Source: a virus. From it: DNA of 31,294 nt. The position numbers and the translations under genes are program-made. Shown piece by piece: positions 1 to 18,280 of the stretch. Within the stretch, counting starts at the first letter, position 1; each line of letters starts with the position of its first letter. The notes under the pieces were generated by a model. That model made no database searches. It saw nothing but the letters and a program-made list of their open reading frames with translations, and was not told the origin of the DNA. The DNA lies in IMG/VR virus record IMGVR_UViG_3300032282_002440, positions 1 through 31,294 of that record; one strand, given 5' to 3'.

Positions 1-156
1 CGGCGGCTTGTGCGGCGGCTTGTGCGGCGGCTTGTGCGGCGGGTTGTGCGGCGGGTTGTGCGGCGGCTTGTGCGGCGGCTTGTGCGGCGGGTTGTGCGGC
101 GGGTTGTGCGGCGGCTTGTGCGGCGGGTTGTGCGGCGGCTTGTGCGGCGGCTTGTG
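1..156. repeat. 12-bp tandem repeat, 13 units, inside the tape measure gene
   Basis: Thirteen back-to-back copies of cggcgg[c/g]ttgtg start at base 1. The only variation is at the seventh base; from base 1 the order is C C C G G C C G G C G C C. Read on the minus strand in the tape measure frame, each unit encodes Ala-Ala-Ala-Gln, or Pro-Ala-Ala-Gln when the variable base is G. The repeat is far more GC-rich than the surrounding sequence and reaches the window edge, so the true copy number is unknown. Confidence 0.97.
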
Positions 157-3100
157 CCCTTTCTTGCTCTGCTTTTCTTCTTTCTTGATATGCTAAGGCT
201 GATTGTCTACTAGCACCACCATAACTAGTATGCTCCATTGTCATTGCTCTTAAAGCAGCTTGACCGCGCAGAGTATTAACTACCGAGCCGTTTTTATCAC
301 GAATCTGATATCCTTCTCTTTTTACCTTCTCTATTTCTTGTTTTTTTAGTTCTTTTTCTCTCTTTCTGACTTTAGCTAGCAATACCTGGTCTGCTTTGCT
401 AGGTCTATAGCCACGAACTTGAGAAGCATGAAGAATTTCTGCTGCTCTATCGAAATTAACATCGTGTTGATCAACATCTCCACCATTTTGAAAACGAATG
501 GGTCTTCTTGGTATAATACCTCCATTATTACGATTAATTGTTTTAGTACTACCGCTATTATTCATACCTAGTGCTGATGTGGCAGCTTTTCTAATTACAA
601 AACTACCTTCTGGTAATTGAGTTTTAAAACTATCACTATTACCCTGGCCAGGAACCAGAGCAATACCACCTTGAGCTAATCGTATTCTTCCGCCATTGTT
701 CATTGGTTTTTTATCAGCATGATTCATCCTTTTAAGTGTGCTGGTACCTATACTTTGAGCAAGCGCTGGGTCTACTACTGCTTCTCCTGGGGTTAGAGCA
801 ACATTAACCATACCACCATTAGCGAATACTTTTCCTCCCAAAGCTTTCGGTATTGTGGCACCCTGAGGTTCAACTAATCTTTTTATAGATTCCACCTGTG
901 AATTTAATATTGGTATTCTCAAATTGCCAATATTTTCTTTATCATAAATTGTAGTACCATTATCTAAGAATTGCTCCTCAAGCACTTCCAGGAAGGTTTG
1001 TCGGTTAGACGGTTTGAAATGTTTACCGAATCTTGCTGCATTTTGTTTGTCTATGCCGAATTTATTGGTGACTGTACTTGCTGTGTCTGATTGTTGTTTT
1101 GCTAGCCACTTTGCTTGCTCAAGACCCCTAACCCACTCTTCGTGTGCTTTATTCACAATATCATTAACTTTAGTTCCGTTAGTATAAGATAAACCACGAT
1201 TCTCTCCAGCTTCATCTAAACCAAAAACCGAAGGATGTATATATTGTGCCTTATCTGGATGGTAGGGTGGTGCGGGGAGTCCGGGTATGAAGGGCTCTAA
1301 CGACATTTCCATCGCGAGAGGCCAATATATATCATCGAAATCTAATTGAAAAAGTGGGTTGGAATCATTTTGATTCGGTTGATTAGGTTTATAATTATTT
1401 TTTAATTGTTTCAGATACATGATTGCATTAAGATATTCATCCATTGTATCTTGATAAGATGGAGTTGTTTCTTGATATGGAGAATTGAGTCCTGCCTCTA
1501 TAGCATACTCTGATGCTCTCTTAATTGATCTCTGTGTTTTGTCATATATTCTTTTTGAATATAGTATACGACTAGCCATACCCTCTGTATCTAATTTTGT
1601 TATATCATTATCTGGTTCTTGTGTATTAATTTCATTGCCAATACCAGAAGACATACGATGAGTATTTTCTGGTATTCGTGGCATACTCCAAGATGGTGGA
1701 GAAGAGAAGTTTTCTCGCATAACTTTGACTAATTCAGAATATAATTCATTGGCCTCTTGAGAATTAGTTAATTGTTGTGATTTTTTACCATTTGTATATG
1801 AACGAAACTTTTTTAGTTTATTAAAGTAGTCTATTGCAACATTAATTTCTCTAGTTTCATCTAGTGGATTAAAAATAGGTTTACCAAACTCATCTTTTGT
1901 TTGTGTTGCAAGACTACTCTTTTTAAGTCTTTCGAATATATCAATAGCTCCCGATGCGGCAGTTCCAAGAGACTTATCAGCATCTGGAGTATCCAATTTG
2001 CCCATTCTCAATCTTGTAATAGCATCTTCAAATACTTTATAATAGGCCATTGTTCTTTCGATAATATATTCACTATCAAATAGAGTATCATTATGAGTCC
2101 ATTTTACTGCATCGTCTCCTTGGATCACCCATGGTTTTCCTAATAATTTCCTCATCCATGCTGGATGCAACTCTTCAAAACTTGTGCTATCTGTCAAAGG
2201 AACAAATGCTTTAGGATTTAATTTTGGAGGTTTAATATCAATTTCTTCTCCCGTCGGATCTGTTGTTATCATTGATCCTTCTGAGCCAATGGAACTAAAT
2301 TTTTTCCAATGATCCAAAATAGCATTAAAACCGCTCATATTTTCTGCCGAACTATCATCATAGATTTTTTTATTCGTTTTCACCCCAGGTTCGCCATGAA
2401 ATCTTTTTACCACTTTATCTAAATTAATTTGTGTTAATAGTGCTTGAGAACTAATTTTCTTTAAAAAATTATGATTATTAGCATCACTAAACTTTCTAAT
2501 ATCCATTTCTAGTGAAAACCTGCGTTTAAAATATTCATCAGGCGCTGTTTCAAATAAGTTATTCAAGATGCTTACTGGTTCATCATTAAGATTAAATAAT
2601 TTATTTAATTTTTCCTTATCTGCTAATCTTTGTAAACGATTACGTTCAATATTATCTGGTCCACCACTGGTAATTATCATATCAGTATAAGCATCTTTAA
2701 ACGCACTATACTTAGATAGCAACAATGGATTTATTTTTATTGGTTCTGGTTTAGGTTTTGCTTTATCTACTAATACTTGCTTAGTTTCATCAGCTGTCAT
2801 TTCCATACTCGCAACACCAGCACCAGGAGTGACTCCAATTGCGGTGTCAAATTTTGCTGCTTCTTGAGCTGTTCTTAATTCTGTTTGATCAATTGCTACT
2901 GGGCCTGGTTTATTTTCTGGTAGAAGTCCAACAGCTTGTAATCCTCCAACCACCATTTCTGCTGCGTTGCCTGGTCTTCTATGAGCATTTTTTAATTCTA
3001 AACTATCTAATTTTGAATTTTTATCAGAATCAATTTGTGGAAAGAGATTCTTCCATTGATCAGCACTGTGTTTCGGCAAAGAAAAAGTTTGTCCACTTAT

Positions 3101-6100
3101 ATGATTTAAAAGAATACCCAGTGGAACCTTAACTTCTTTGAACGACGGTCCATTAAAGGTTCTAGTCATCCACCTAGGTATAAACTCGCCTGTTTTACTG
3201 TTTTGAAATGTTGTGACTTTTGTGTCAAACATAGGACCTATCAAACCTTCAGATATTCTTAGACTTTTTTCATCCCAAGTTTGTTGATCTATAAAATCTT
3301 TATCCGGATATTTTAAATGAATCATTTGTCTAAAATATGGACTATTTGTTGTAAAATCAGACTTTGCGGCAGATCCTTCTTGGCGAATCTTGTTAGCAAG
3401 ATAAGGTCCTACAAAGCTTGGTACTCTATATTGAAAAGGAATCATAGCATCAATACCAATTATATTATTTAATACTTTTTCCCTTTGGGCCATATCAGCA
3501 GCTTCTTCAGGAGTTCTTAAATTTTCATCTAATAGCATACTATCCAGGGTGGGGGTGGTGAACTCAACCGCAGGTTTATCTGTGCCATGACGCAATTTTC
3601 TTAGCTTTCTTAAATTATCTATTAGGCGCATTTTATTTGCTAGTAGTTTTGCTTTATTTGGATCCGGAGCAGACTCTTCCATAGATTGATCATCTGAACT
3701 TTTTGTTATATTAGGATTAGGTATCAAACCATGTTCAGAACCACTATGCCAATCATATAATTTTGCATAATCATCATATAGATAATCTAAATATGGACTT
3801 AAATCTTTAATACCATATTTAATATCTGTAACTCTATTGATAGGATGACCTTGATCTCCTGGCATTTTAATAGGCATTAAAGATGTTATTAATCCTTTAC
3901 TACCACTTAAATATTTAGTAAAATCATAACCATCTAGTGATAGTTTGGGTCGATCCATATCTCTAAGATAAAAATATTTGCTATATTGTTTTTTTAGATC
4001 TCTTAATCTACTTTCATTTTCGAAATATATTTTTTCATTAAAATTACCTTTAGCATCATATGGGTTCCTAGATTTATATTTACCATTTATCATATCTTTA
4101 ATATTTATATATGCTTTACGCATATCTCTATCACCAAAAAATAACATATTACTATAATCTTTAGAAGCTATGCTCTGTAAGGATTGTATATTTTCTCGTG
4201 GATAACTACCAAAATGAAGCATGCGCTCAAAATCTCCGGATTGGACAAGTAGTCCTTTTTCATTTGGATCTCTATTTCCATATGCTGGCGAATTTCCTTT
4301 TTTAGTAAACGGATCAACAGAAGCAACTTGTCCACCATCTTGGAAATAGGTGGGTCCATTTACCACACCACCCCTATTATAAGAGCCACTATTAATACTA
4401 TGTAATAGTGGTAGATTTTGTTGTGTGGCCTGTTTATTAACTACAAATTCACCTTTAGAAAGCATTGCTGGTATCTTATCTTCACCCTTTGGTTGAAAAT
4501 CAATATAAGCACCCTTACTAGCATATACCACACCTCCGTGTGATTTTCCTTCGGCCTCTTGCATTTTAACTAATTCTTGATTAGCTCTAATCTGTTCTAG
4601 TTTTTTAAAGTCTGGTAGTACCAAATTAGTTCCAAAAGTTAAAGTTTTAAAAGCATCAGCATATTTTAAATAATCTTTTTTAAATATATCATCAGTTGGC
4701 CACAACATACCAGTATCCAAATAACGATCTTGAAATCCAAACCATTCATCCATCATTGTTAATTTATCAATAAATAATTGTTTATTTTTGTTTGCTATGG
4801 GAGATGATGGATTTTTTGCTTCTTCAAATGCATCGATAATATGATTAATTAATACGCTTCGATAACCCCCAGGAAATATATTATAAGGATCAAGAGCTAA
4901 ATTACCTAGTTCACCAATATTTTTTGGTTTATTATTTTTAGATAGTGGTTTATAACTAACAGCACCAGTCTCTTTATCAATACTAGCAATTTGCGCACCA
5001 CTATCATCCTCCCAGAGTTCATTTAATGCTAATTGAATATCAGCACCCAAAATATTTCGATTAAGAACAGGATCCGCATCATTAGCAGATTTTTTACCCC
5101 CAGATGCCATTAATCCAGAGGCTATTGCATTACTGGTTTCTTTAATTCTAGTAACTATATCATCAACAGAGTTAAGTTCTGGTGGATCCAAATTACTATA
5201 TATCGGAGATTGAATAAGACCAGATATACCACCAAAATCCTTACTGCCCACAAAACTAAAAAACTGACCCAATACATCCATTATTGACCATGCTTTAGCG
5301 TATGGTTCTCTAATTTGATAGCTAGTTACACGATCTCTACCCACTCCCTCTGTTATAGTTTTAATAAATTGTGGCATTTTTTCAATATTAGGTTTGGTTT
5401 TTGTTGCTTCTTGTCCAAACAGTCTAAATAATGCCGCTTTAGAATTATTATCTTTTGGTAATCGTCTGATATCTAATGCTTGTAATGGAATACGCATACG
5501 ACTTAAAACAGTAGATGATCTTACAGATTTTTCAGCAATTAATCTACCATAATTCTTTTTGACAAATTCATCAAAAATTGCTTTATTATTATCAACATCT
5601 TCTATTGATAGTTCTTTACCTTTTACAGTTAAATCTGGGCCTATAGTATCACGCAAATCTTCTTTTTTTTGCAAATCTTTTAGCGTCTGGAGAAATATGG
5701 GAGCCTGCCATGCAAGATTTGTGCGAGGCTTATCCACGAAAGCATTATTTAATGTGTCTTTATCGTAACTTAGTGCCATAAATTTGGCATCAGTAACTCG
5801 TCTACCAAAAGAGCCTGTAAAACCTACGGGTGTTTTAGTTTTTATTAAATTTGTTACATATTTTTCAATTTCCTGCCGACCATGACCAGGAATAATAGCT
5901 GCATAATTATTACTATTAACAGTATTAGCTTCAGCAAAGGGATTGTTTTTGGCATTCTGTCCACCAAGTTCTATAACAGAAAAAGTCTGTGATTGTGGAG
6001 AAAAGTCTTCTATATCAGGATCGTAAAATGGACCAGTAATGGTTTTATATGTCAAATTTAATCCTCGTTCCATATCCTCATAAATATCTGGTTTTACAGT

Positions 6101-9100
6101 TATTTTTTTATTAGAGAGTTTAAATGCTTCTTCAGCATTAATCATATTGTTTTCATCAAAACCTTGAGTTGACCATGGAAAATCACGAGAAAATCCTCCT
6201 GTTTGAGTGTCAGTTATTTTAATCCAATTGTTTCCATCTATACCACTAAGAACTTCAGGCTTGTCTTTAAATTCTGGAAATGTTGGAACCAGATCTTTCC
6301 AATTTTGAGGGTTAATATTATATAATGTGACTGGACTAGTAGTATTTAAATCTTCATTGGTAAAATTTGCTTTAAATAAAGTTTTATTAAACAATCCTTT
6401 CATTTTACGAAGACGATTTCTTTTTTCTGTTGATGCCTTTGTTTCGGTCTCTCCTTTATCTTCGTTTAAATTAGCTAATGCTTGCTGTAATCGTGTTTTA
6501 TACTTAAAATAATCAACAATACCACTTTTGATTGTTGTATCGCTTTCAGTTGCTGTTAAAACTTGATAATCTTTAAAAGGAATATCTCGATCAAATCCTA
6601 TAGTAAATGGTTGACCATAAGCATTATTGTCGCTCCAATTATCAAAACCAGCAACAACTGTAGCATATCCTCTTCCATACAATTGTGAGGGCGTTGTTGT
6701 TATATTAAATGGATAGCCCTCATTTTTTGCAGTAGTGTGGGACTCTTTTAATTTAGTTTTTAAAGCTTCGGTACTAAATACTCCATAGTTACCACTCAAA
6801 TGTTTTGTTAAATTTGATAATTTTATTATAACTCCAGCATCATTAGACGATTTATTTATTGTAGGGTTTATCTTTTGTGAAAAATCTGTGATACTATCAA
6901 TTCTTCCGCTTCCACTTTTATAGGATGATCCGTTTTCTTCTAAATCTGCTGAGAATACTCCTTTTAATAATAGATCATATGCTTTTTTATATTTATCAAT
7001 TTTGTCTTTTTTAAGTTGTCCATTTTTATTATTATCAAATAAATCATTAATATTATTTTTGGGAATAAAACCTAATGGATTCACCTTAGGATCATTGGTC
7101 ATTCCCGCATATTGCCTATCAGCATTAGAATGATTTAAAAAACTAGCAACTGATGTTCCAGCAGCTATACCAGCCCCGATACCAATGGTTAATGGCGCGG
7201 CCACTGTTGAAAGAACACCGGCTGAGATAAGACCAGTAGCCCCTGCGTATCCAGCCGCTGCTCCTGCTCCCGCTCCAACAGTGGTTGGTGCTGTGCCTCC
7301 AAGTAATGGAGCAGCTATTTCTAGAGTCATTTCATTATATGCTTTTCCTACTCTCGCTGTGTTTTTAAAGGGCTCATCAAATAAACCATTTTCATCATCC
7401 AAATTTAAAGGTTTGCCTCTATATGTTGAGTCGGCACTTGCATAAATAGAAGGATTACTTAATGTTGAAACTGATTGACGATAATGACCCACATCAGGAT
7501 TTAGGTTTTTTAAGAGTGGATAATCAACTTTTTGTGTGCCAGTTTCTTTTGTTGCTGTGTCTGTTTCATGTTCTTTTTTACCCCACGATTCACTCTTATT
7601 ATTCTTGCCACCAAATACATATCCTCCGTCAGCATAATAAGAGACTTTACCACCCTTACTTCTATTAATACTATGTAAGAGAGGTAAATTATTTTGAGTA
7701 GACTGTCTATTAACTACAAATTCTCCTTTTGTTAACATTGCTGGCACAGTATCGGTACCTTGAGGTATAAATGCTCCTTGACTAGCGTATACTAAACCTC
7801 CAGTAGCAATACCTTGCGCTGGTGCGGGATTATTTCTTCCTCTAACTAGGTTAACTAAATCATTAATACCATCTCTAATATCAACTAATGTTCTGCTTTC
7901 AAAATTTAATGTTGTGCCAACTAATGCTTCTTTTAGTTTTTGCGCTGCTATAGCAGCAGAGTTGTCTCTCATTCTACCGTCAATGCGAGCCAATTGTTCA
8001 TTAGCAATTTTTTGAGTATTTAAACTTTGTTCATAAATACTAATAGCACGAGCCATTTCTGGATCAGCTTTTGGATTTCTTAACGAATCCAGAATGTTCT
8101 GAAACATTGGTCCAATAGCAACATTAGACTCTTTTAACATACTCTCAAGTACATTAGCTTTTAGCGCTCCTTCCTTTTCACCCAAGAAGGGAGCGATCAT
8201 GTTAAATAGTTCTAAGCTTTGCTGTCTAGTTTCTGGTGTGGAATAGGCATTGACTCTACCAGCCATATTTTCATTTAATCTCATAGCCGCTTGATTCATA
8301 GCAGCAATATCTTCTGGCATACTAGTAACAACTTTTTCTAATATAGCCACACCAGCTTGTTGTTTTTGTTGTATTTCTGTAATTTTACTCATTGCTGCTG
8401 ATGCAATATCTGAGCTTTCACTTAGTCTTTTTAGAGCATCATAATTATCTCTTAGCGCCACATTAGTTTTAAGCAATTGATTTGTCATTAACTGGAATTC
8501 AGCCATTCCAGAAGGTCCTTTATTAGCAGCGGTATTAGCTGTAGCTTGTCTGGCTTGTCTAACATTTTCAAGTTCTAATGCTTTATTACCTATGGCTACT
8601 GGTGAAGATAGCCCACCCGTCATTTGTTTAATACTAGCTTTAAAATTACTAATAATTCCAGTAAGATCCACATTAGCACCAAAAGTTCTGGCTAACTCCA
8701 TACGACCATTAATTTCAATATCTGTGGCTCTACGGTATCTATTATTAGATTCAATTTGACTTTCAATAATAGTATTGAATGTTTGTGCATATTCATTAAG
8801 ACCATTTTGCCAATTCTCCAAAGCTTTAGTAGCCGCTTCCTGTGCTCGTTTAGCGCTTTCTAAAACTCTAGATAATTGTGGAATTTTTTCCATTAATTGA
8901 CTAAAATCAACTTTATCTTCACCTTGTTTTCTCATTTCTTGTAAGGTAAGACCAATTTCTGTAGATAATTTATCTGTTAAATCTGATGGTAATTGTAAAT
9001 CTTGTAGAGCATTATTTATAGCGGATGTGATTTTTGCTCCCATAGCTTCATTAGTAATCGTGCCTCTTGTTGTGCTACTAAGAACATTATTAATAGTAGA

Positions 9101-12100
9101 CATTATAGTTTCTTCTAATTTTGGACCCATTTCTAATAGTCCTCTAACAACATTAGACTGAGATCCAAAAGATGATGATGCTAGTGAGGATGCTCGTTTG
9201 CGATCTATATTGCTATAAGCTTGAGGATTTTGTATAGTATTTATTGCTGTTAATTTTGTTGGTGAGATTTTAGCTTGTCCAGATAGTGCAGCAGCAGACG
9301 CTTCTGCCTGGTCTGTTAATAAAGACATAGCGTATGAAGCTCGATTAATAGCTTGTTCCATATTTTGGAACATTCTTTCAAAACTAAATACTAATCTATT
9401 AGCAGATTTATTAAGATCTTCAATAGCTTTTTCTCTAAGAGCGCGAGTTTGTATATCTCTAGCCTTACGTTCTGAGGCCATAGCTATCACAGATTCTTTT
9501 CGTTGTTGTTTTTCAATATTACCAATACCAACAAGATTATCTATACTCATAATTTCTTGTTGTACAGCAGCATCCGCTAATGCTAGACTTCTTGTGAGTC
9601 TATCAAATTCTGCTGGATTTTCTTTTTGCATCCCAGCTACTGAACTACCAGTTTTAAATCTGGTTTCTAAATATTTAGTTGTGACTTCAGCCGCACCCTG
9701 AAAAGATTTTGATGCTTGTTTAGAGAGTTCTGGTATGTATTTCTGGAAAGCTATAGACTGATTGCTCTCTCCGCCAATGCCAATAGTACTCAAATATTTA
9801 AATATTCCTTCTCTTTGTAAAATTTCACCCCTTTGATATGATCCTTGTCCAGTATCAGCTAGATTCATGATTCCATATTGGGTTCTTTGAGTTTGTTTAA
9901 CTACATTTTCAGCATCAGACACAACTTTCATAATATCTGTTTTAGCTTTTATTTGCAAAGCATCATTTTTAACATCCTGAGTGAATTTATCTAAACTTTG
10001 TGTAGCTCGTTCTAATGAATTTTCTAAAGTATTTTTACTTGCTGTTATAGCGAATGTTTTTGCCGCATTTTCTGCATCGGCGAAAGATTTAACTAAACCA
10101 TATCCAGCTGCTGCGGCACCAGCAATCCAACCCAAAGGGCCACCCATACTAGAAAGAACTAAACCCGTACCAACAGCATTTGCCATTCCTTGATTACCGG
10201 CTTGAGATCTTGCGGCTTGTTCGCTTCCTGGTTCACCACCTTGAAGCATGTCAGTTAACATTGGGATAGCCATGCTTAATGCAAACATGGAATTTTGGCC
10301 AGGACTACTATTATTTCTATTACGATTTGGATCTCTGTTAGGATTTGTGCCTGTTGGCGGCACACCAAATCCACCCAACCCGCCTCTGCCCCAACCTGAT
10401 CCACTTGGCATATTTCTAACAGTACTGAATATTCTACCAATACTATCAGTAAAATTTCTTAATAAGTTACTAAGCACCGATACTGTTGATCCTAGTGGAC
10501 CTCCACCAGCAGCAAGTTTAGTTACAGCTCCAACCTTACCTCCACTATGATATTTATTAAGTTGATGTAAATTATTATAACCAATAGCCCTAGCCGATCT
10601 ACGATTAATAATATATTCCCCACTTTGAGCCATTATGGGAACTTCACCACCCATAGCATGAGAACTAGTAAATCTTCCAAGAGTTAATGATCCTAATAAT
10701 TCAGAAGCTTCATCTCTGGTTAGATTATGCATTACCTTACCACTTCTTGATAATTCAATTCTACCATTATCAAGTTGTGCAATATTATATCCTGATGCTT
10801 CTGCGGCTTTCCTTAATTCAGCACCACTTAATTGCTTTCTGCCCATCAAAGCTGCTGAAGCTTTTTGTGATGAAACAGGAGTGGGAGATATAGGGTTTCT
10901 TGACCCACCAGCTAAATGATGAACGGCCCCACCCAAAGCCCTCTTTAGAGGCGGAGTACGTCTCATCTTAGAAAATTTTTCTAAAACCGGAACTTTAGAA
11001 CCTCCAGATGTAAATTCCATATTAGATGTTGGTATGCTAAACATTTTGCTAATGTGTTCAGCCAATCCTGGAACCTTAGATGATTTACTAATTATAGAAA
11101 GATTTTGTGGTTTGATTACGCCTTTTTTAATTAAGTCCTGTAATTGTTGACCAAACTGTGTCAGTCTTGCTGATTTTACGTCATCTAATCTAGCTTGTGG
11201 ATCTCTAAAATATTTATCTAATACAGCATCTTTTTGTTCTGGTGTTTTAGCGCTAGCATAAGCAGCATCTCCGACTGTTCGCTGTAAAGTTCTGTCGAAA
11301 TCTAATGCGCCACCACGATTTTTAATAATTCTATATAATGGAGATCCTTTACTAATACCCGGAATTGGTAACATAGATCCAGGAGCATTAGGTAGATCGT
11401 CTATTAACGGTAATCCTCCTCTACTTAATCCTATAAAACCGCCCAGTGCTCTTCTTAATTTTTTAGCTTTAATGTCTCTTCTACCTCTAGTAAATTGACC
11501 TTTGGCAACTTTTGCTCTTGCCACTTCTTTGGTGGCTTGCTTTGTCGCATCGGTTAATGCTTTAGGGTCTACTCCAAATAAAGAACCTAGATCTTTACCT
11601 AATCCTTTACCAAAATCCAATGCTTTGGATGATGGATCATATGGGGCGCCAGCAACAGCTAAACCACTTTCAAATAATAAACCAGAAATATTATCTAGTT
11701 GTTTACTAACAATAGCACGAATTTGTTTTCTGTCTGTTACTGGTGATGACCCAGCTCTGGTTGCAATAAGTTTACCAACTGTTGCTGCTATTCTTTCACT
11801 TTGATTTCTAATAACCGCTTGTACTTGTTTGGATAAATCATCTGGTAACGATCCTGTTTGAAGAGTGGCTGGAAATCCTTTTATTGATTTCTTGCCTTTT
11901 TTGCCTTTACGATCTGGACTCATAACCTCTTCAGATATAGCTTCTCCTGTTAATCCAACAACAGCTATATTTCTTTTTTTGGCTTGTTGTGATATTTTAT
12001 CTCTTTTAGCTTTAGTAATTATTCTTTGATCTTCTAATTTTTTTATTAGTTGACTTCTAGCCTGTTCAGATCCTTTTGCTCTAGGATCTAATAATCTTCT

Positions 12101-14749
12101 AATATCACCAGGAACATTTACACCTAGTCTTAATGATTCTTTTAATAGATCAGCTCGTCCCATATCTTTTAATGGAGCATCTGAACCTACGCCAAATTTT
12201 TGAATCAATCCTCCTATTTTTGAATGAATAGACAAAGAATCCTTAACACCCTCAGACAGCTTATTTGGTAAAAAGTCTCTATTTTGTGTTCTTAATTGAT
12301 TTGGTTGATTAACCATTAGTTCCATAGGTCTATTCAGTATCTGTCCTTTACTTTCATAAAAGTCTTTAATTATCTTTTCAAACCCATGTAATTGAGTATC
12401 GCTTGATACAACTCTTGTTCCTTTTTTATAGGGTCCAACATCACTAATTAATCTAGTAGAAGATCGAACAATTTCTTTCTGTAATAACCTGACTAATTCT
12501 GCATCTTCTTGTGGGGATAATGCTGGAAGAGATTGTTTTTTTTGTCTTGAACTAATTTTTTTTCCATCTAATGATACAGCCCTTAGAAATTGTGGTGATC
12601 TCATACTTTGTATAAAATCTTTTAATAAAATGACTTGATTTGATCCTCTTTTTAAGGCTTCATTAAATTCTCTGGGTAATCCTACGGTTAAATTTTCTGT
12701 TAATTCCCCTTTGGCTGCGCTTGAGGAAAACATCGGTTGAAATTTTTTAGGTATAGATTTATTGAAAGAAGAGTAGTAGTTTTTTATTTTTTCTAATATA
12801 CTATCTGTAATTTTTTTGGGAGCAGTAACATGTGATCTAACGTATTTGGCTGCGGATTGTATTTTTGGTGCTATAGTTACTCCTCCTATGCCAAATTTTT
12901 GTCTGCCCCTAGCAATTTGAGATATATTATCTATACCAATAGCACTAGTAGCATCTTTACGAATAACGAAACTCCCTGCTGGTAGCTGTGTATAAAAACT
13001 ATCAGTATTACCTTCGCCAGGAACCTGAGCAACACCACCCCTAGCTAATTTTACTGCTCCTCCTCTTTTCATTGGCCTTTTATCAGCATAATTCATTTTC
13101 CTTAATGTATTCACACCAATACTTTTAACAGCATCAGGGTAGACAACACCTTCTCCTGGCATTAGTGCAACGTCTATCATTCCACCCTTAGCATAGCCCA
13201 CAGATCCACCACTAGCACGCCCTCTTCTTATACCACCCATAAAACCGGTGCCAAATTGTCTAATAGCTTGTGCTCCTCTCACAGCCATAACAATACTGAG
13301 AATTGGCAACACTTCTTTAGCAGCATCGGCCACTTTAATCAATGCACTAGCGATAGATAAAGCACTTTTTGCTAATGATTGAAAAGTATCTGTTCCACCA
13401 ATTTCTCTAAACAAAGCTAAAAATTCTTCTCTAACTTTAACGATTTGATTAGCTAAACTCTTTTGTGCAAGCGCTGCGTCTTCTGCTAGAGAGCCTTGAC
13501 CTTGTTGAGCCACAGCCAACGCTTGCTGCGCTGTTGTGAACTGTTGGATAAGTGGAATCACTTTACCAATCTGTCTAAAACCACCAAGTTCTTCAATAAT
13601 TTGAGAAAATTTTAAATCTCTTGGATCTATACTACTGAGTCCTCTAGATAATAATTCTACTGCTTTATATGCTCCAACGAATTTACCATCTAAATCTGTT
13701 AAATTGATGCCAAACTCTTTAAGTGCTTCAACCGTACCTCCTCTTTGTATTCTAGTAAAAATAGTACGCAAACCAGTCGCAATAGTTTCTGCGCTTTCAC
13801 GAGTAGTAGCTCGTACACTAGTAAATACTGCAATAAATTCATTAAGAGCATCTTTTCCTTCACTGACGCCTTTGCTTGCTGCTGCAAACACACCACCAGT
13901 TCTTTGTATGGCAGCAATTATATCACTCGATTCCACAGCAAATTTTGCTGCTACAGCGTTAACAGATCCGAGGGCATTATCAAGATCATCAGCACTAATA
14001 CTAAACTGTCTCATTAATGCAATACTACCCTCTACTGTTTTATTCATGTCATCAAAAGATGGAGCTAAACTACTAAGAGCTAAAGCTTTAAGGGCTTTTT
14101 CAGTATCTCTAGCACTTAGGCCAGCTTGAGCGAGGGTGGATGCTACGTTAGTTAATTCACTAGAGCTAACGCCTAAATTAGTCGATAGGTTTGTTATAGT
14201 GTTGGATAAACTTTTGAGAATATCTTGTGATTCACCAGTTACTTGTTGCAGTTTAATGAACTGTTTGTCGAATTCAATAAATGCTGCCGTACCTTGTCTA
14301 ATAGCATTAGTAACACCAAAAATAATACTTGTAACAGCACTGAATGCAGCAAATCTTCTTACTGCTAGTGCTGATTGTCTACCAAACTCTTCCATCTCAG
14401 TTCTTGCTTGACCAGCACCAGCTCCCATATTGTTCATATTGCGTTGCGCATTATTTAGACCACGATTTAAATTGGCTGGATTAACATTATTGACTGCTGC
14501 GGCAAAATCATTAATGGCTTGGGCGGCTGCTGCTGCATTAGTTTGTGTGGTTGTGAGTGTGGCATTCAAATTTTGTAATGCTGCATTGAGTTGCGTAGCA
14601 TTTCTAGTAGCATTTGGAGCTACACTTAAATTAACATTAGCATTTATATTGCCCAATTGTCTACGAATATTAGACACAACCGCTCTAATATTGGCCGGGC
14701 CTCTCAAATTAATTTCTGCGGTTAGATTAAAAGATCTTGCTCTGGCCAT
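1..14749 (-). CDS. Giant tail tape measure protein, 3' end outside window (at least 4,916 aa)
   Basis: Tape measure proteins fill the tail tube, set tail length and are ejected with the DNA. I translated the minus strand codon by codon from ATG at 14749 (MARARSFNL) and met no stop before base 1, so the gene is 3'-truncated here. The start has an AGGA ribosome site ten bases upstream. Residues ~1-130 are Asn/Ala/Gln-rich. Residues ~160-460 resemble the TP901-type tape measure core, with phrases such as ATTRESAETIATGLRTIF and EELGGFRQIGKVIPLI. Hydrophobic segments lie near residues 127-150, 477-503, 1520-1556 and 2472-2535. Residues ~1400-2300 are helical, Ala/Gln/Glu-rich tail-rod-like sequence. 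Glycine-rich modules of two types recur (listed separately). A HAD-like segment, an EF-hand-like loop and a C-terminal AAAQ/PAAQ repeat are embedded. Residues ~2380-4640 match no fold I recognise. The gene follows the tail-assembly proteins, as expected for a tape measure. Confidence 0.93.
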   Translation of the reverse strand, partial: MARARSFNLTAEINLRGPANIRAVVSNIRRQLGNINANVNLSVAPNATRNATQLNAALQNLNATLTTTQTNAAAAAQAINDFAAAVNNVNPANLNRGLNNAQRNMNNMGAGAGQARTEMEEFGRQSALAVRRFAAFSAVTSIIFGVTNAIRQGTAAFIEFDKQFIKLQQVTGESQDILKSLSNTITNLSTNLGVSSSELTNVASTLAQAGLSARDTEKALKALALSSLAPSFDDMNKTVEGSIALMRQFSISADDLDNALGSVNAVAAKFAVESSDIIAAIQRTGGVFAAASKGVSEGKDALNEFIAVFTSVRATTRESAETIATGLRTIFTRIQRGGTVEALKEFGINLTDLDGKFVGAYKAVELLSRGLSSIDPRDLKFSQIIEELGGFRQIGKVIPLIQQFTTAQQALAVAQQGQGSLAEDAALAQKSLANQIVKVREEFLALFREIGGTDTFQSLAKSALSIASALIKVADAAKEVLPILSIVMAVRGAQAIRQFGTGFMGGIRRGRASGGSVGYAKGGMIDVALMPGEGVVYPDAVKSIGVNTLRKMNYADKRPMKRGGAVKLARGGVAQVPGEGNTDSFYTQLPAGSFVIRKDATSAIGIDNISQIARGRQKFGIGGVTIAPKIQSAAKYVRSHVTAPKKITDSILEKIKNYYSSFNKSIPKKFQPMFSSSAAKGELTENLTVGLPREFNEALKRGSNQVILLKDFIQSMRSPQFLRAVSLDGKKISSRQKKQSLPALSPQEDAELVRLLQKEIVRSSTRLISDVGPYKKGTRVVSSDTQLHGFEKIIKDFYESKGQILNRPMELMVNQPNQLRTQNRDFLPNKLSEGVKDSLSIHSKIGGLIQKFGVGSDAPLKDMGRADLLKESLRLGVNVPGDIRRLLDPRAKGSEQARSQLIKKLEDQRIITKAKRDKISQQAKKRNIAVVGLTGEAISEEVMSPDRKGKKGKKSIKGFPATLQTGSLPDDLSKQVQAVIRNQSERIAATVGKLIATRAGSSPVTDRKQIRAIVSKQLDNISGLLFESGLAVAGAPYDPSSKALDFGKGLGKDLGSLFGVDPKALTDATKQATKEVARAKVAKGQFTRGRRDIKAKKLRRALGGFIGLSRGGLPLIDDLPNAPGSMLPIPGISKGSPLYRIIKNRGGALDFDRTLQRTVGDAAYASAKTPEQKDAVLDKYFRDPQARLDDVKSARLTQFGQQLQDLIKKGVIKPQNLSIISKSSKVPGLAEHISKMFSIPTSNMEFTSGGSKVPVLEKFSKMRRTPPLKRALGGAVHHLAGGSRNPISPTPVSSQKASAALMGRKQLSGAELRKAAEASGYNIAQLDNGRIELSRSGKVMHNLTRDEASELLGSLTLGRFTSSHAMGGEVPIMAQSGEYIINRRSARAIGYNNLHQLNKYHSGGKVGAVTKLAAGGGPLGSTVSVLSNLLRNFTDSIGRIFSTVRNMPSGSGWGRGGLGGFGVPPTGTNPNRDPNRNRNNSSPGQNSMFALSMAIPMLTDMLQGGEPGSEQAARSQAGNQGMANAVGTGLVLSSMGGPLGWIAGAAAAGYGLVKSFADAENAAKTFAITASKNTLENSLERATQSLDKFTQDVKNDALQIKAKTDIMKVVSDAENVVKQTQRTQYGIMNLADTGQGSYQRGEILQREGIFKYLSTIGIGGESNQSIAFQKYIPELSKQASKSFQGAAEVTTKYLETRFKTGSSVAGMQKENPAEFDRLTRSLALADAAVQQEIMSIDNLVGIGNIEKQQRKESVIAMASERKARDIQTRALREKAIEDLNKSANRLVFSFERMFQNMEQAINRASYAMSLLTDQAEASAAALSGQAKISPTKLTAINTIQNPQAYSNIDRKRASSLASSSFGSQSNVVRGLLEMGPKLEETIMSTINNVLSSTTRGTITNEAMGAKITSAINNALQDLQLPSDLTDKLSTEIGLTLQEMRKQGEDKVDFSQLMEKIPQLSRVLESAKRAQEAATKALENWQNGLNEYAQTFNTIIESQIESNNRYRRATDIEINGRMELARTFGANVDLTGIISNFKASIKQMTGGLSSPVAIGNKALELENVRQARQATANTAANKGPSGMAEFQLMTNQLLKTNVALRDNYDALKRLSESSDIASAAMSKITEIQQKQQAGVAILEKVVTSMPEDIAAMNQAAMRLNENMAGRVNAYSTPETRQQSLELFNMIAPFLGEKEGALKANVLESMLKESNVAIGPMFQNILDSLRNPKADPEMARAISIYEQSLNTQKIANEQLARIDGRMRDNSAAIAAQKLKEALVGTTLNFESRTLVDIRDGINDLVNLVRGRNNPAPAQGIATGGLVYASQGAFIPQGTDTVPAMLTKGEFVVNRQSTQNNLPLLHSINRSKGGKVSYYADGGYVFGGKNNKSESWGKKEHETDTATKETGTQKVDYPLLKNLNPDVGHYRQSVSTLSNPSIYASADSTYRGKPLNLDDENGLFDEPFKNTARVGKAYNEMTLEIAAPLLGGTAPTTVGAGAGAAAGYAGATGLISAGVLSTVAAPLTIGIGAGIAAGTSVASFLNHSNADRQYAGMTNDPKVNPLGFIPKNNINDLFDNNKNGQLKKDKIDKYKKAYDLLLKGVFSADLEENGSSYKSGSGRIDSITDFSQKINPTINKSSNDAGVIIKLSNLTKHLSGNYGVFSTEALKTKLKESHTTAKNEGYPFNITTTPSQLYGRGYATVVAGFDNWSDNNAYGQPFTIGFDRDIPFKDYQVLTATESDTTIKSGIVDYFKYKTRLQQALANLNEDKGETETKASTEKRNRLRKMKGLFNKTLFKANFTNEDLNTTSPVTLYNINPQNWKDLVPTFPEFKDKPEVLSGIDGNNWIKITDTQTGGFSRDFPWSTQGFDENNMINAEEAFKLSNKKITVKPDIYEDMERGLNLTYKTITGPFYDPDIEDFSPQSQTFSVIELGGQNAKNNPFAEANTVNSNNYAAIIPGHGRQEIEKYVTNLIKTKTPVGFTGSFGRRVTDAKFMALSYDKDTLNNAFVDKPRTNLAWQAPIFLQTLKDLQKKEDLRDTIGPDLTVKGKELSIEDVDNNKAIFDEFVKKNYGRLIAEKSVRSSTVLSRMRIPLQALDIRRLPKDNNSKAALFRLFGQEATKTKPNIEKMPQFIKTITEGVGRDRVTSYQIREPYAKAWSIMDVLGQFFSFVGSKDFGGISGLIQSPIYSNLDPPELNSVDDIVTRIKETSNAIASGLMASGGKKSANDADPVLNRNILGADIQLALNELWEDDSGAQIASIDKETGAVSYKPLSKNNKPKNIGELGNLALDPYNIFPGGYRSVLINHIIDAFEEAKNPSSPIANKNKQLFIDKLTMMDEWFGFQDRYLDTGMLWPTDDIFKKDYLKYADAFKTLTFGTNLVLPDFKKLEQIRANQELVKMQEAEGKSHGGVVYASKGAYIDFQPKGEDKIPAMLSKGEFVVNKQATQQNLPLLHSINSGSYNRGGVVNGPTYFQDGGQVASVDPFTKKGNSPAYGNRDPNEKGLLVQSGDFERMLHFGSYPRENIQSLQSIASKDYSNMLFFGDRDMRKAYINIKDMINGKYKSRNPYDAKGNFNEKIYFENESRLRDLKKQYSKYFYLRDMDRPKLSLDGYDFTKYLSGSKGLITSLMPIKMPGDQGHPINRVTDIKYGIKDLSPYLDYLYDDYAKLYDWHSGSEHGLIPNPNITKSSDDQSMEESAPDPNKAKLLANKMRLIDNLRKLRKLRHGTDKPAVEFTTPTLDSMLLDENLRTPEEAADMAQREKVLNNIIGIDAMIPFQYRVPSFVGPYLANKIRQEGSAAKSDFTTNSPYFRQMIHLKYPDKDFIDQQTWDEKSLRISEGLIGPMFDTKVTTFQNSKTGEFIPRWMTRTFNGPSFKEVKVPLGILLNHISGQTFSLPKHSADQWKNLFPQIDSDKNSKLDSLELKNAHRRPGNAAEMVVGGLQAVGLLPENKPGPVAIDQTELRTAQEAAKFDTAIGVTPGAGVASMEMTADETKQVLVDKAKPKPEPIKINPLLLSKYSAFKDAYTDMIITSGGPDNIERNRLQRLADKEKLNKLFNLNDEPVSILNNLFETAPDEYFKRRFSLEMDIRKFSDANNHNFLKKISSQALLTQINLDKVVKRFHGEPGVKTNKKIYDDSSAENMSGFNAILDHWKKFSSIGSEGSMITTDPTGEEIDIKPPKLNPKAFVPLTDSTSFEELHPAWMRKLLGKPWVIQGDDAVKWTHNDTLFDSEYIIERTMAYYKVFEDAITRLRMGKLDTPDADKSLGTAASGAIDIFERLKKSSLATQTKDEFGKPIFNPLDETREINVAIDYFNKLKKFRSYTNGKKSQQLTNSQEANELYSELVKVMRENFSSPPSWSMPRIPENTHRMSSGIGNEINTQEPDNDITKLDTEGMASRILYSKRIYDKTQRSIKRASEYAIEAGLNSPYQETTPSYQDTMDEYLNAIMYLKQLKNNYKPNQPNQNDSNPLFQLDFDDIYWPLAMEMSLEPFIPGLPAPPYHPDKAQYIHPSVFGLDEAGENRGLSYTNGTKVNDIVNKAHEEWVRGLEQAKWLAKQQSDTASTVTNKFGIDKQNAARFGKHFKPSNRQTFLEVLEEQFLDNGTTIYDKENIGNLRIPILNSQVESIKRLVEPQGATIPKALGGKVFANGGMVNVALTPGEAVVDPALAQSIGTSTLKRMNHADKKPMNNGGRIRLAQGGIALVPGQGNSDSFKTQLPEGSFVIRKAATSALGMNNSGSTKTINRNNGGIIPRRPIRFQNGGDVDQHDVNFDRAAEILHASQVRGYRPSKADQVLLAKVRKREKELKKQEIEKVKREGYQIRDKNGSVVNTLRGQAALRAMTMEHTSYGGASRQSALAYQERRKAEQERAQAAAQAAAQPAAQAAAQPAAQPAAQAAAQAAAQPAAQPAAQAAAQAAAQAA
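566..820 (-). repeat. Tape measure module A, copy 2 (residues 4644-4728)
   Basis: This 85-residue glycine-rich module contains GGMVNVALTPGEAVV, a SIGTSTL..MNHADKKPM stretch, VPGQGNSDSF and a TQLPEGSFVIRK segment. It aligns without gaps to residues 521-605 of the same protein, with about 55 of 85 positions identical by hand count. From memory, similar PGE/VPG.GN.DSF/GSFVIRK phrases occur in other large phage tape measures. Confidence 0.9.
2996..3031 (-). other. EF-hand-like calcium-binding loop in the tape measure (residues 3907-3918)
   Basis: The twelve residues DSDKNSKLDSLE place Asp, Asp, Asn, Lys(backbone), Asp and Glu at loop positions 1, 3, 5, 7, 9 and 12. This is the canonical EF-hand/dockerin-type calcium loop, with Leu at position 8; Ser replaces the usual Gly at position 6. 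The segment sits between FPQI and LKNAH, which could form flanking helices. Calcium binding is inferred from the motif only. Confidence 0.5.
4331..4537 (-). repeat. Tape measure module B, copy 2 (residues 3405-3473)
   Basis: The module reads GGVVYASKGAYID, then IPAMLSKGEFVVNKQATQ, then QNLPLLHSIN, and ends in a Gly-rich DGG. It closely matches residues 2317-2376 of the same protein. The phrase P-A-M-L-x-x-GEFVVN is familiar from many phage tape measures, which supports the identity of the whole ORF. Confidence 0.9.
7622..7801 (-). repeat. Tape measure module B, copy 1 (residues 2317-2376)
   Basis: The module reads GGLVYASQGAFIPQGTDTVP, then AMLTKGEFVVNRQSTQ, NNLPLLHSIN and a terminal ADGG. 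It is closely similar to copy 2 about 1,090 residues later. It separates the helical mid-section of the tape measure from the large unrecognised region that follows. Confidence 0.9.
10532..10651 (-). repeat. Tape measure module B, divergent copy 3 (residues 1367-1406)
   Basis: The segment runs GGEVPIMAQSGEYIINRRSA, then RAIGYNNLHQLNKYHSGGKV. It keeps the module B pattern of a Gly-Gly lead, a GE[YF][IV][IV]NR core, an N-L-x-x-L turn and a closing GGKV, but is shorter and more divergent than the two copies further along the protein. Confidence 0.7.
10964..11311 (-). other. HAD-phosphatase-like segment in the tape measure (residues ~1147-1262)
   Basis: Residues 1149-1155 read LDFDRTL, with D1150, D1152 and T1154 in the DxDxT motif I spacing of HAD hydrolases. 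A predicted strand NLSIISKS then puts S1221 where motif II Ser/Thr is expected, followed by a helix. SKVPVLEKF supplies K1252 in the place of the motif III lysine. An acidic motif IV is not evident before the glycine-rich linker that follows, so the domain may be inactive or incomplete. This is a motif reading, not a database result. Confidence 0.45.
12935..13189 (-). repeat. Tape measure module A, copy 1 (residues 521-605)
   Basis: The module reads GGMIDVALMPGEGVV, SIGVNTLRKMNYADKRPM, VPGEGNTDSF and QLPAGSFVIRK. It has the same length (85 residues) as the copy some 4,120 residues downstream, with no gap needed in the alignment. It closes the TP901-like N-terminal region. Confidence 0.9.
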
Positions 14750-14835: not shown

Positions 14836-15723
14836 TTATTTATTGATTTCTGAAACGCTGGTTGATTTGGATTCTGTATTAGTTTTTTCATCTTCCTTCT
14901 TAGACTCCTCAATCTTATTGGTTTCTGTTTCAATAACAATTGGTTTTCCATCATCATCTAAGAATGGTTTACTTTCAACAATATACTCTCCATCCTTATC
15001 CACCTTATTACCTAGTTTATCAACAAAATTACCCTCACTATCAATAAATCTGCCACTTTCATCAATTAGTCTGCCTTCAAAATCAACTAGTTTACCTTCT
15101 TTATTAATGAAACGTAATTTATCATCAACAAATTTATATTGCTTTAAAAATTTGTTTTCTGGTAAAGTACCCTCATAATCATTATCTAAACCATAAAGCA
15201 TATTAGCCAAATTTTGAGCAGCAGTTAGGGCTACCTCATCAGTTGACCTATTAAGGTAGTCCTCCAAACTATGAAAATAGCGCTGTTTCGTATTATCATA
15301 CACCGTGCAGGCGGAAACCAAATAATTAAATCTAGCATTATCGGCTTGACCTTCTGCTGTGTGAGTATCCAGATTAGTTTTGACAGAGATTAGTTCTCTT
15401 AGTTTATCTCTGTGCTTTTTGATCTCCAGAGCAATAGTCTTGGCTTCTGACAGAGGAATACCTCCTCTAGCCAATTTTCTTTCATTCTCTAGAACCTGTG
15501 TTTGTAGATTATCAAATTGATTTTGTTTATTATCGTCCCATAAACCCTGTTCAATTAAAAGATCGTCTAATTTAGCTCTAACAACTGCCTTAGACTTTAA
15601 TGCATCGCTGAAAGCCTGATTATAAGCTTTTGTGGCCTCTTTTTGATCCTCAATAGATGGTGATCTAACAGCGATTGTTACTTCTTTGCCATCTATAGTT
15701 TTTGTAAAAGTTCTGATTTTCAT
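14836..15723 (-). CDS. Tail assembly protein in tape-measure-chaperone position, with 7-residue repeats (295 aa)
   Basis: Function is not recognised from sequence. Its place directly upstream of the tape measure is where tail assembly chaperones usually lie. Residues ~54-150 (IEQGLW ... DTHTAEGQADNARFNYL) match the pattern of residues in the neighbouring 350-residue protein, so the two look paralogous. Residues 199-261 form nine 7-residue units of the type [VI]D-x-[ED]-G-x-[FL]. The C-terminus (~268-295) is a Lys/Glu/Ser-rich, probably disordered tail. The start is supported by AAGGAA six bases upstream of ATG. It lies 14 bases after the preceding gene's stop and ends before a terminator hairpin. 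Confidence 0.8.
   Translation of the reverse strand: MKIRTFTKTIDGKEVTIAVRSPSIEDQKEATKAYNQAFSDALKSKAVVRAKLDDLLIEQGLWDDNKQNQFDNLQTQVLENERKLARGGIPLSEAKTIALEIKKHRDKLRELISVKTNLDTHTAEGQADNARFNYLVSACTVYDNTKQRYFHSLEDYLNRSTDEVALTAAQNLANMLYGLDNDYEGTLPENKFLKQYKFVDDKLRFINKEGKLVDFEGRLIDESGRFIDSEGNFVDKLGNKVDKDGEYIVESKPFLDDDGKPIVIETETNKIEESKKEDEKTNTESKSTSVSEINK
14941..15129 (-). repeat. Nine 7-residue repeats in the 295-aa tail assembly protein
   Basis: Residues 199-261 divide into VDDKLRF, INKEGKL, VDFEGRL, IDESGRF, IDSEGNF, VDKLGNK, VDKDGEY, IVESKPF and LDDDGKP. The consensus is a beta-branched residue or Leu, then Asp, two variable residues, Gly, and an aromatic or aliphatic residue at position 7. The DNA copies have diverged, so this is a repeat at protein level. 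A short-strand solenoid or acidic ion-binding array is possible. Confidence 0.88.
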
Positions 15724-15737
15724 ATCATGTTCCTTTC

Positions 15738-16001
15738 TTATCTTTGATAAAATTTATAATTGTATTGTACAGTATCCGGTCTCAAATCAGCAATGCATTT
15801 TCTTAATTGATGATTTCCATTATTCAAAATTTGATTTCTAATATCATCCCAAATTAGTCTATATTGTTCTTCTTGAGCTGTTAGGGGCTGGTCGGGATCT
15901 TTATTTTGTCCCCACAGATAACCAAAATTTTTTTCAAATTCGAATAAAGCTCCAATCATTGTGGTTTGAAATCTTTTAGTCAATATGTCTTTGTAGTTCA
16001 T
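15738..16001 (-). CDS. Small tail-assembly-region protein, unknown function (87 aa)
   Basis: This 87-residue protein starts MNYKDILTKRFQTTM, has an aromatic stretch FEFEKNFGYLWG and ends with an NHQLRK...YNYKFYQR segment. I recognise no catalytic motif. The ATGA overlap (15998-16001) with the stop of the upstream 350-residue gene indicates translational coupling, and the next gene starts 14 bases downstream. The cluster of three small to mid-sized genes between tube protein and tape measure suggests a role as a tail assembly chaperone or tail initiator partner. That is inferred from position only. Confidence 0.75.
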   Translation of the reverse strand: MNYKDILTKRFQTTMIGALFEFEKNFGYLWGQNKDPDQPLTAQEEQYRLIWDDIRNQILNNGNHQLRKCIADLRPDTVQYNYKFYQR

Positions 16002-17050
16002 TGTTTTCCTACGCTCATAGCCTGTTTATTGGATTGCATTTGTAAATTTCTTCGAACATCCGGCAGATTCGTTTCCGATATTTCCTGATCAGAACTAAGT
16101 ATTACATTATTTCTTTCATTTATAATATGTCTGGATGAAGCATTATTCAAGTTATAAATATTATCTGCTTCTTCTTTAGAACTCGCCATTAAAAATACTT
16201 CTTGAGCATTATTTAATTTTTTACCATCTAATATTTTTTCTGCACGTTTTTTAGATCTAATTTTTTCATTTTCTCGTCGTTGTAATATCATCCAGCCATC
16301 AAACATATCATCATCTTCTATAACGCTGTCCTGAGGACATTCAGGATGCTCATAAGTACTATCATACATTTTAGTAAATAATACTAGTGTCCTTTGCTCG
16401 TCTGTCCAATTTATTGGAGACTTGTCAAAAATATTATTCTTATTACATGACCAATAATTTCTCCATAGTTCATTACGAGCTATTTTTTTTAGAATACTAA
16501 CATCAATAATATTATCATTAATAATGCTTGACATATTATTAACAACTAAATAATCCACATTTATCATATCTGAAAATACAAGATTATCATTCATGTCTCT
16601 GATACTATTAATAAGTAAATATTGATTCTTAAGAGTAGTAGCAAAACCTTTGGAGGTCAAATGATCTAATGAATGTCTAATATTGGTATACTTATAATAA
16701 GAGTGTCTAATATTAGATAAGCTTCTTCTAATAGATTTAATTTTATTAGGATTCAAAATATTTTTAAATAATTCGACCTTATTATCCTCTATTTCCTGCT
16801 CCATCTTTTTGAGTTGCTCATCTCCATTGTAATTCCATAATCCTACATCGATCAGCATATTCACTATGTCTTCATCTGTAATCCAAGTATTATACTTATT
16901 ATTTTCATATTCATTACTAGCATATATTTCAGCTTCATATTTAACTGAAATATTTGGATATACTAGTTTATACTTAGTATTTTGAAATAAGAATATATAA
17001 AACCCAGATAATATTCTGGATAAATATAAATTAATCTCTTTATCTTCCAT
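15998..17050 (-). CDS. Tail-assembly-region protein, paralogue-like to the 295-aa neighbour (350 aa)
   Basis: No catalytic motif is visible. Residues ~66-160 run MLIDVGLWNYNGDEQL, an acidic and basic helix, KIKSIRRSLSNIR, SLDHLTSKGFA and NQYLLINS. This follows the same order of conserved positions as the 295-residue protein (LLIEQGLW, EIKKHRDKLRE, LDTHTAEGQA, FNYLVSA), so an ancient duplication is likely. The C-terminal ~100 residues are charged and include a mostly helical RRENEKIRSKKRAEKIL stretch. The gene is coupled to the 87-residue gene by an ATGA overlap. It begins 40 bases after the tube gene with an AGGGGA site close to the ATG. Position suggests a chaperone or assembly role in making the tail. 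Confidence 0.75.
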   Translation of the reverse strand: MEDKEINLYLSRILSGFYIFLFQNTKYKLVYPNISVKYEAEIYASNEYENNKYNTWITDEDIVNMLIDVGLWNYNGDEQLKKMEQEIEDNKVELFKNILNPNKIKSIRRSLSNIRHSYYKYTNIRHSLDHLTSKGFATTLKNQYLLINSIRDMNDNLVFSDMINVDYLVVNNMSSIINDNIIDVSILKKIARNELWRNYWSCNKNNIFDKSPINWTDEQRTLVLFTKMYDSTYEHPECPQDSVIEDDDMFDGWMILQRRENEKIRSKKRAEKILDGKKLNNAQEVFLMASSKEEADNIYNLNNASSRHIINERNNVILSSDQEISETNLPDVRRNLQMQSNKQAMSVGKQ

Positions 17051-17090
17051 AATCCCCTAACCATAGTCCAAAATCCGGTTATAAACTCTA

Positions 17091-18221
17091 TCAGACGCCC
17101 ACTACCACAGTGCTATAGTAGAGTCCACCACTATGAGCAACAGTAAAGTCGTTGAAGTTCTGATAACTATAAGTCATTGTCACATTGCCTCCACCAGTAT
17201 CACCACCAGTATAGTTAACACTGGTTAGTTTATTCCTGGAGCCAAGACCAATTCTTGTACCTTCGCAGGTTTCAAGGAAAATAGTCTCGTTAAGAAGATT
17301 AAATCTATTGGCACAAGCGGCAGTCGAATCATTAGCAACAGACTTATTAGCTTCTGTGCCAGTATAGTAACCCTGGGCTGTGGCATTGACCCACTCACCA
17401 CTTACTGACATAACTTCAAATTCACTTGTTACTTCAACTGGGAAGTTAACATAGCGATGGTATGGTTGTCTTGTGCCAATCTCATACATGCTTTCACGAC
17501 CAAGATCACAACTAACTGTGATATTTTGGAAATGCACAGAGAAACCGTCTGTAGTATTCACAAGATCATTTGTACCACTGCTGCTGATACCCGGAATCTG
17601 CTTGGGGAATCTGCAATTACCCATTGTGAGATGCTGTCTACGATTCACGCCTTGAATAGCAACTGGACTATCATTATTATTGGTAAATGAACCAGTAATA
17701 GCTGTGGTGGCCCAAATTTTATCATTACCAACTAATGTAACATCTTCTGTAAAATTACCATCAACAGGGAATGTATAACTAACAGAACTCACATACATAC
17801 CACTGCAACTAACAACTGCTGTGGAACCATTCTTCGCACTGGTTTGAGTGTCTGGATAGATTGCTAATTGAAGATCTGTTCGAGTGTTCGATCTACCAGC
17901 AAGATCAGCACTAGTAGCAGTCAAGCCCGACTGTAGACCTGTGCCTCTTTCTGTTGACAACACATAAAGTAGTGGATAACCATCGAGCACTTTATTAAGA
18001 GTTACTTCAATATCTGGAACATTTTCATAGTTCTGATATAGAGCTAACTGACCCATTTCATAGATTTGTTCTAGATTGAAATTTGTGCTGATACCGACTG
18101 TCTGTAAGCCATGTATCGCAACTGGTGAGCCCGTTACGCCACTTCCTGGTTGACCAGGGGAAGTAAGGCCGCTACCTAAACTGACTTGTTGAATTGCATA
18201 ATAAATACGATGATTGGGCAT
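17091..18221 (-). CDS. Major tail (tube) protein candidate (376 aa)
   Basis: The protein is Gly/Ser/Thr/Asn-rich with alternating beta-strand patterns and few Lys, as in a secreted-like structural beta protein. Its place between the connector cluster and the tail assembly genes is where the major tail tube protein is encoded. Examples of strand-like runs are GMYVSSVSYTFPVDGNF, GFSVHFQNITVSCDLG and NVTMTYSYQNFNDF. The ribosome site GGAG lies seven bases before ATG. The gene has visibly more balanced codons than its AT-rich neighbours, which fits a highly expressed virion protein. No tail sheath gene is seen in the window, so siphovirus morphology is favoured but a sheath elsewhere is not excluded. 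An adhesin-like virion protein is the alternative. Confidence 0.7.
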   Translation of the reverse strand: MPNHRIYYAIQQVSLGSGLTSPGQPGSGVTGSPVAIHGLQTVGISTNFNLEQIYEMGQLALYQNYENVPDIEVTLNKVLDGYPLLYVLSTERGTGLQSGLTATSADLAGRSNTRTDLQLAIYPDTQTSAKNGSTAVVSCSGMYVSSVSYTFPVDGNFTEDVTLVGNDKIWATTAITGSFTNNNDSPVAIQGVNRRQHLTMGNCRFPKQIPGISSSGTNDLVNTTDGFSVHFQNITVSCDLGRESMYEIGTRQPYHRYVNFPVEVTSEFEVMSVSGEWVNATAQGYYTGTEANKSVANDSTAACANRFNLLNETIFLETCEGTRIGLGSRNKLTSVNYTGGDTGGGNVTMTYSYQNFNDFTVAHSGGLYYSTVVVGV

Positions 18222-18264
18222 AATTATTCTCCACTATTTATTGTTATATGGTGAACTCGACTAG

Positions 18265-18280
18265 ATCTTATTAGTAAGAT
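18265..18280. other. Perfect 6-bp inverted repeat upstream of the tube gene
   Basis: On the plus strand ATCTTA-TTAG-TAAGAT forms a perfect hairpin with a four-base loop in the 75-bp gap between the 320-residue gene and the tube gene. No T-run follows on the minus strand, so it is not a standard terminator. It may be an mRNA stability or processing element, or chance in AT-rich DNA. Confidence 0.35.

Follow-up and report, generated by a model that had tools for sequence, protein, structure and literature searches.

A modular tape measure protein with variable, possibly cargo-bearing slots in a family of uncultured phages

The stretch of DNA analysed here (the window, 31,294 bp) corresponds to a linear IMG/VR record in its full length. 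Its genes follow each other on one strand in the order terminase, portal, protease-scaffold-like, structural, capsid, neck/tail and tape measure protein (TMP), the TMP gene being the longest of this head-neck-tail block as well as its end (Table 1). Most tail genes located between capsid and TMP match nothing, and no Pfam or PHROG match to a sheath-like gene was found among them. The virus is probably a long-tailed phage of the siphovirus type. The protease-scaffold-like gene contains tandem repeats of 42 and 21 bp (22987-23132). Genes for an ERCC4-type nuclease and an HNH endonuclease (28361-29112) are situated directly upstream of the large terminase gene, and the late block begins with a sigma-factor-like gene (29917-30534; PHROG 1740, E 5e-4).

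Table 1. Features of the window (feature; position; strand; remarks). aa, residues of the TMP.
12-bp tandem repeat	1-157	none	13 copies, encodes AAAQ/PAAQ, at contig edge
TMP frame	2..14749	-	4,916 codons, 3' end cut at contig edge
Start of further segment, aa 4760-4916	2..472	-	truncated by contig end
Repeat-domain copies 6 and 7, aa 4638-4695 / 4691-4759	473..838	-	
Slot 4, aa 3476-4637	839..4324	-	
Repeat-domain copy 5, aa 3404-3475	4325..4540	-	
Slot 3, aa 2379-3403	4541..7615	-	rich in W/Y/F, N/D, P
Repeat-domain copy 4, aa 2316-2378	7616..7804	-	
Middle domain, aa 1417-2315	7805..10501	-	conserved; low in Pro and aromatics, helix-favouring composition
Repeat-domain copy 3, aa 1369-1416	10502..10645	-	
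Slot 1, aa 625-1368	10646..12877	-	variable
HAD-phosphatase-like segment in slot 1, aa ~1146-1270	10940..11314	-	from motif alignment
Repeat-domain copies 1 and 2, aa 514-572 / 569-624	12878..13210	-	
N-terminal core, aa 1-513	13211..14749	-	38-71% identity across 27 loci; contains PF10145
Neck and tail genes	14836..20956	-	upstream of TMP; assigned by position, tail-tube gene included
Major capsid, structural, protease-scaffold-like, portal and large terminase genes	21055..28392	-	capsid and portal: weak PHROG hits

The long frame almost certainly encodes a tape measure protein, an identity already proposed in the preliminary description and borne out by a match of residues 183-389 (window 13583-14203) to the Pfam family PF10145, PhageMin_Tail (1.4e-23), and by seven PHROG tape measure families that match the N-terminal part of the protein. 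Named phages match the N-terminal core only, at 23-30% identity. For instance, Slash-like and SPbeta-like Bacillus phages and the Rhodococcus phages Reynauld and Mbo2 possess a homologous core of the PhageMin_Tail type; in the Bacillus phages the large terminase is related as well (about 24% identity with Slash-like phages). However, the TMPs of these phages, in those read, are composed of 2,249-3,192 residues, and the similarity is confined to the core.

The ORF listing with open ends and the translation gave a single stop-free frame of 4,916 codons that starts with the ATG at 14749 and is open at its 3' end, confirming the earlier claim of one uninterrupted 14.7-kb frame reaching the window edge. 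The likelihood of such a succession of sense codons by chance is negligible. Since the left edge of the window falls inside the 12-bp tandem repeat, the frame has been cut by the assembly and the gene is unfinished; the assembly probably broke at this repeat, an edge type typical for short reads, and the contig of one relative (L112) likewise ends within a low-complexity repeat. Nearly every complete relative examined carries a terminal repeat domain and roughly 80-290 residues at its C-terminus. The window frame is short of an end of this type and, therefore, the complete protein probably consists of at least about 5,060 residues.

With high confidence, the plan of this TMP can be described as modular, with a repeat domain at every junction and variable slots in between. 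The repeat domain is about 70 residues long (consensus GGxVYASxGxLIxFxPKGTDTVPAMLTPGEFVVNRxATQxNLPLLxAINxG...GGxV) and is present in seven copies in the window TMP and in two to nine copies, located at junctions, in all 37 TMP frames compared. The repeats divide these proteins into an N-terminal core of about 540 residues, pre-middle slots (181-2,196 residues), a middle of about 1,150, post-middle slots (83-2,558) and a C-terminus of about 155. Differences in total length among the 31 complete frames come mostly from the slots (83% of the variance), with 10% from the middle and 1% each from the N-core and the C-terminus. Tryptophan, tyrosine and phenylalanine, as well as proline, are more frequent in the slots than in the core and middle. 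In the window frame, 60% belongs to variable slots, the conserved parts and repeat domains amounting to only about 1,830 residues.

The repeat domain also occurs in 158 records of cultured phages, of which almost all of those listed bear a TMP annotation, and in gp16 of the mycobacteriophage Douge, which is in the PDB, and thus is a widespread TMP element. The Douge protein, of 1,699 residues, carries it twice, and the same domain is present in the TMPs of phages infecting Gordonia, Mycobacterium and Brevundimonas. PHROG TMP families match the repeat domain, no Pfam match to it was obtained in the window protein, and its AlphaFold model is of low confidence.

Of the 36 TMP frames compared with that of the window, five have sequence related to its slot 1 (L109 at 66%, L110/L087 at 53%, L113/L218 at about 30%). 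Slot 1 of the window contains a putative HAD-phosphatase-like segment in which motif I (DFDRTL, at residue ~1149) and a motif II-like serine (IISK) are kept. The DD of motif IV is missing from this segment, which for that reason looks degenerate; its AlphaFold model is of low confidence (mean pLDDT 64.8) and gave no Foldseek match below E 0.2. Slots 3 and 4 together comprise 2,187 residues rich in aromatics, asparagine/aspartate and proline. Slot 3 shows weak similarity (24%) in L109 only and an EF-hand-like DNNKNGQL; slot 4 has a weak EF-hand-like stretch near residue 3898 and no relatives in the TMP frames compared. Single-sequence patterns retrieved no relatives of either slot from IMG/VR.

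Relatives of this virus are numerous among uncultured phages. Terminase relatives were found in at least 597 IMG/VR contigs, the best 80 at 76-100% identity, and relatives of the TMP N-terminal core numbered 27 with a single-sequence search and 454 with a profile. Contigs of three terminase relatives (L122, L123 and L124) have been binned in MAGs of Alphaproteobacteria, Flavobacteriales and SAR202, bins that conflict with each other. Host assignment through MAG contigs was set aside, as these are three unrelated groups.

The TMP frames range from 1,962 to 7,577 codons. More than 5,000 are present in 22 of 65 relatives' records, a non-random sample (15 plus 50, including a few near-duplicates) made up of the best matches to the window N-core, in which a small number of frames are cut by the end of their contig. 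All 19 long frames that were fetched and re-read are closed, and the longest measures 7,574 residues when read from the first ATG. This frame (L216/L217, G050) is free of cysteine from first ATG to stop and is the longest found here. The preliminary description had considered TMPs near 5,000 residues to be rare, with P74-26 as the known example. Among named phages, only P74-26 (5,006 codons in its record) and P23-45 (5,002; PMC10770324) were encountered at that size. Within its own family the supposed rarity does not hold, and the size of the window TMP is typical for a little-known family. This family supplies TMP frames that exceed the one of P74-26, 7,574 residues being the longest known to us.

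The TMPs of P23-45 and P74-26 (gp96 and gp95) resemble the window protein in being encoded, at about 5,000 residues, by one gene, and both phages have a long non-contractile tail. In P23-45 an enzyme, an RNA polymerase, is fused to the tape (PMC10770324), of which it forms the first ~1,100-1,200 residues. That enzyme is single and N-terminal, whereas here several different domains would occupy slots between repeats. The RNA polymerase motif DxDGD was absent from all 37 TMP frames in a motif scan, and a fusion of the P23-45 type was rejected on this ground.

Cysteine is absent from the 4,916 residues of the window TMP. The 37 TMP frames together contain 12 cysteines in 178,323 residues (0.007%), as against 0.97% in adjacent tail and neck genes. 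Loss of cysteine as a trait specific to this family can be ruled out, since reference TMPs are also nearly free of it: there is none in lambda gpH (853 residues), P74-26 (5,006), YomI of SPbeta (2,285), Slash (2,249) and TM4 (1,229), none in the part of HK97 that was read, one in the 3,192 residues of Reynauld and one in 432 residues (part) of P2. The near-absence of cysteine is possibly a general, little-noted rule of TMPs, slots included, and a search of the open-licence literature found no published statement of it. Threading through the tube together with an oxidising periplasm would favour such avoidance.

Enzyme-like motifs are frequent in the slots of the relatives. At least one was detected in each of the 20 fetched TMPs above 5,000 residues, and none in 10 of 17 shorter frames. 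In slot 1 of 12 TMPs, a P-loop, GxFxPxxxGH and ISxTxxR occur in the same order and with near-constant spacing. The latter two motifs are hallmarks of HIGH-type nucleotidyltransferases, and profile scores agree weakly with them: Pfam CTP_transf_like covers the whole putative domain at E 0.021, and NadR-type and other adenylyltransferases are among the weak nucleotidyltransferase hits of profile searches against the PDB. A P-loop together with NadR-like nucleotidyltransferase motifs within the TMP was observed in slot 1 of L213, L214, L218, L220 and L216. An NAD-related activity of these modules at infection would be speculative.

A HAD-like domain is also found in slot 1 of relatives, with 16 aligned copies, most of which keep motifs I (DxDxT), II (S/T), III (K) and IV (DD) in order; it gave no confident fold or profile match in Pfam or the PDB. 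In most copies it is followed by a conserved E...IDFP.GLG...PTExK segment, which may be nuclease-like. Slot 1 of relatives also holds HExxH domains, which look metallopeptidase-like. This motif occurs 24 times in the TMP frames, nine of them within a well-conserved domain of 240 residues, and neither this domain nor the HAD-like one had a decisive match in PDB profile searches. One relative showed a weak match to ART-PolyVal (0.0025), and three enzyme modules of one relative had no match in cultured phages. Made from motifs and weak profile scores, these enzyme assignments of the slots are putative.

We consider it probable that the TMP is a modular tape which at the same time carries swappable cargo. 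The tape proper would consist of the conserved N-terminal core, the helix-favouring middle and, in complete relatives, a C-terminus of about 150 residues, with the repeat domain marking junctions between which slot content and length can vary freely. The protein would fill the tail tube in an extended or unfolded state and set tail length, and it would be ejected ahead of the DNA, taking the slot domains along into the envelope or the cytoplasm as cargo. The main interest of the family lies in this modular, possibly cargo-bearing plan. That the cargo includes enzymes delivered into the host has somewhat less than an even chance of being correct; the RNA polymerase fused to the P23-45 TMP is a precedent for an enzyme on a tape (PMC10770324). 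A fast-evolving spacer would be an equally good reading of the slots. In its boldest form, the cargo reading would make the TMP a tail-delivered multi-enzyme carrier, in which cysteine-free cargo modules (kinase-like P-loop plus NadR-like nucleotidyltransferase, HAD phosphatase, nuclease-like and metallopeptidase modules), inserted between copies of the repeat domain, are threaded through the tube and enter the host first and tail lengthening, perhaps beyond 1 µm, is a side effect. We regard this as conceivable, although rather doubtful.

Two known systems invite comparison with such a carrier. The polyvalent proteins described by Iyer et al. (2017; PMC5512222) are also large and multi-domain, are thought to be injected with the DNA and contain peptidase and ART domains; however, TMPs go unmentioned in the main text of the paper, and here the carrier would be the tape itself. 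Sle1, from actinobacterial contractile injection systems, is a TMP-related carrier of exchangeable functional domains, but it belongs to a cellular injection system and its tape is far smaller, a coiled coil of 440 residues (PMC13277306).

Tail length is usually read directly from the length of the TMP gene. An almost fourfold range of TMP lengths, achieved through partly enzyme-like inserts, puts to the test both this rule and the idea that tapes routinely deliver proteins. If every residue counts, the linear relation known from TP901-1 would give the window phage a tail of at least 0.7 µm, which is plausible; if the conserved parts alone count, it would measure about 0.3 µm. Since 60% of the frame lies in variable slots, 0.7 µm is better placed in the upper range for the sequence shown than taken as the minimum, as the preliminary description did. 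In TP901-1 mutants, tail length is linear with the residues removed, in several regions, about 127 residues remaining uncounted (PMC5099701), and the tail of P74-26, with a TMP of about 5,000 residues, measures nearly 1 µm (PMC10034513). The TP901-1 linearity and the length of the P74-26 tail, reached although the related P23-45 TMP begins with an RNA polymerase, favour the counting of all residues.

These same observations would suit a TMP that is nothing but a length tape, able to tolerate almost any sequence, with all its residues extended and its slots acting as neutral filler. For the window phage it would predict a tail of about 0.73 µm or longer, and for the relative with 7,574 residues one of about 1.1 µm. 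Slots 3 and 4, nearly without relatives, look as weakly constrained filler would. However, the enzyme motif sets of slot 1 are conserved in order and spacing, and proline and aromatics are richer in the slots than in the tape-like middle, which makes a purely passive tape unlikely.

It is less likely still that the slots are folded cargo, compacted or looped, which does not count towards length, so that the N-core, middle, repeats and C-terminus (roughly 2,050-2,250 residues) would alone set a tail of about 0.3 µm. The conserved parts are indeed near-constant while total length varies almost fourfold among relatives whose N-cores are 60-73% identical. Nevertheless, the lumen of the tail tube, of about 4 nm, is too narrow for large folded domains of several chains abreast; for a trimer in a 4-nm lumen, at 134 cubic angstrom per residue, we estimate a packing floor of about 0.16 µm. 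In addition, the P74-26 tail is no shorter than predicted from its whole TMP despite the RNA polymerase domain reported for P23-45.

An assembly artefact, by which two or more genes were fused through a missing stop or in a chimeric contig, could be suspected from a single metagenomic record that terminates in a repeat, but it is extremely improbable, since uninterrupted homologous frames, equally long and with the same plan, occur in dozens of separate contigs, which argues that the window frame is real and rules out a chimera, and since cysteine is absent from the entire frame, as in TMPs.

A sibling contig is 97.8-100% identical to the window over ~20.5-30.2 kb (head genes) and then about 70-86% identical across the tail genes, the alignment ending at 13178, inside the TMP at residue 524, where the first repeat domain lies. 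Exchange or divergence has affected the tail block as one unit. Module swapping restricted to the TMP of this sibling is too simple an explanation, since identity falls to about 70-86% across the whole tail block. The drop in identity is sharp, it is located at ~20,400-20,500, the boundary of the head and tail gene blocks, and the same break is found against two other siblings.
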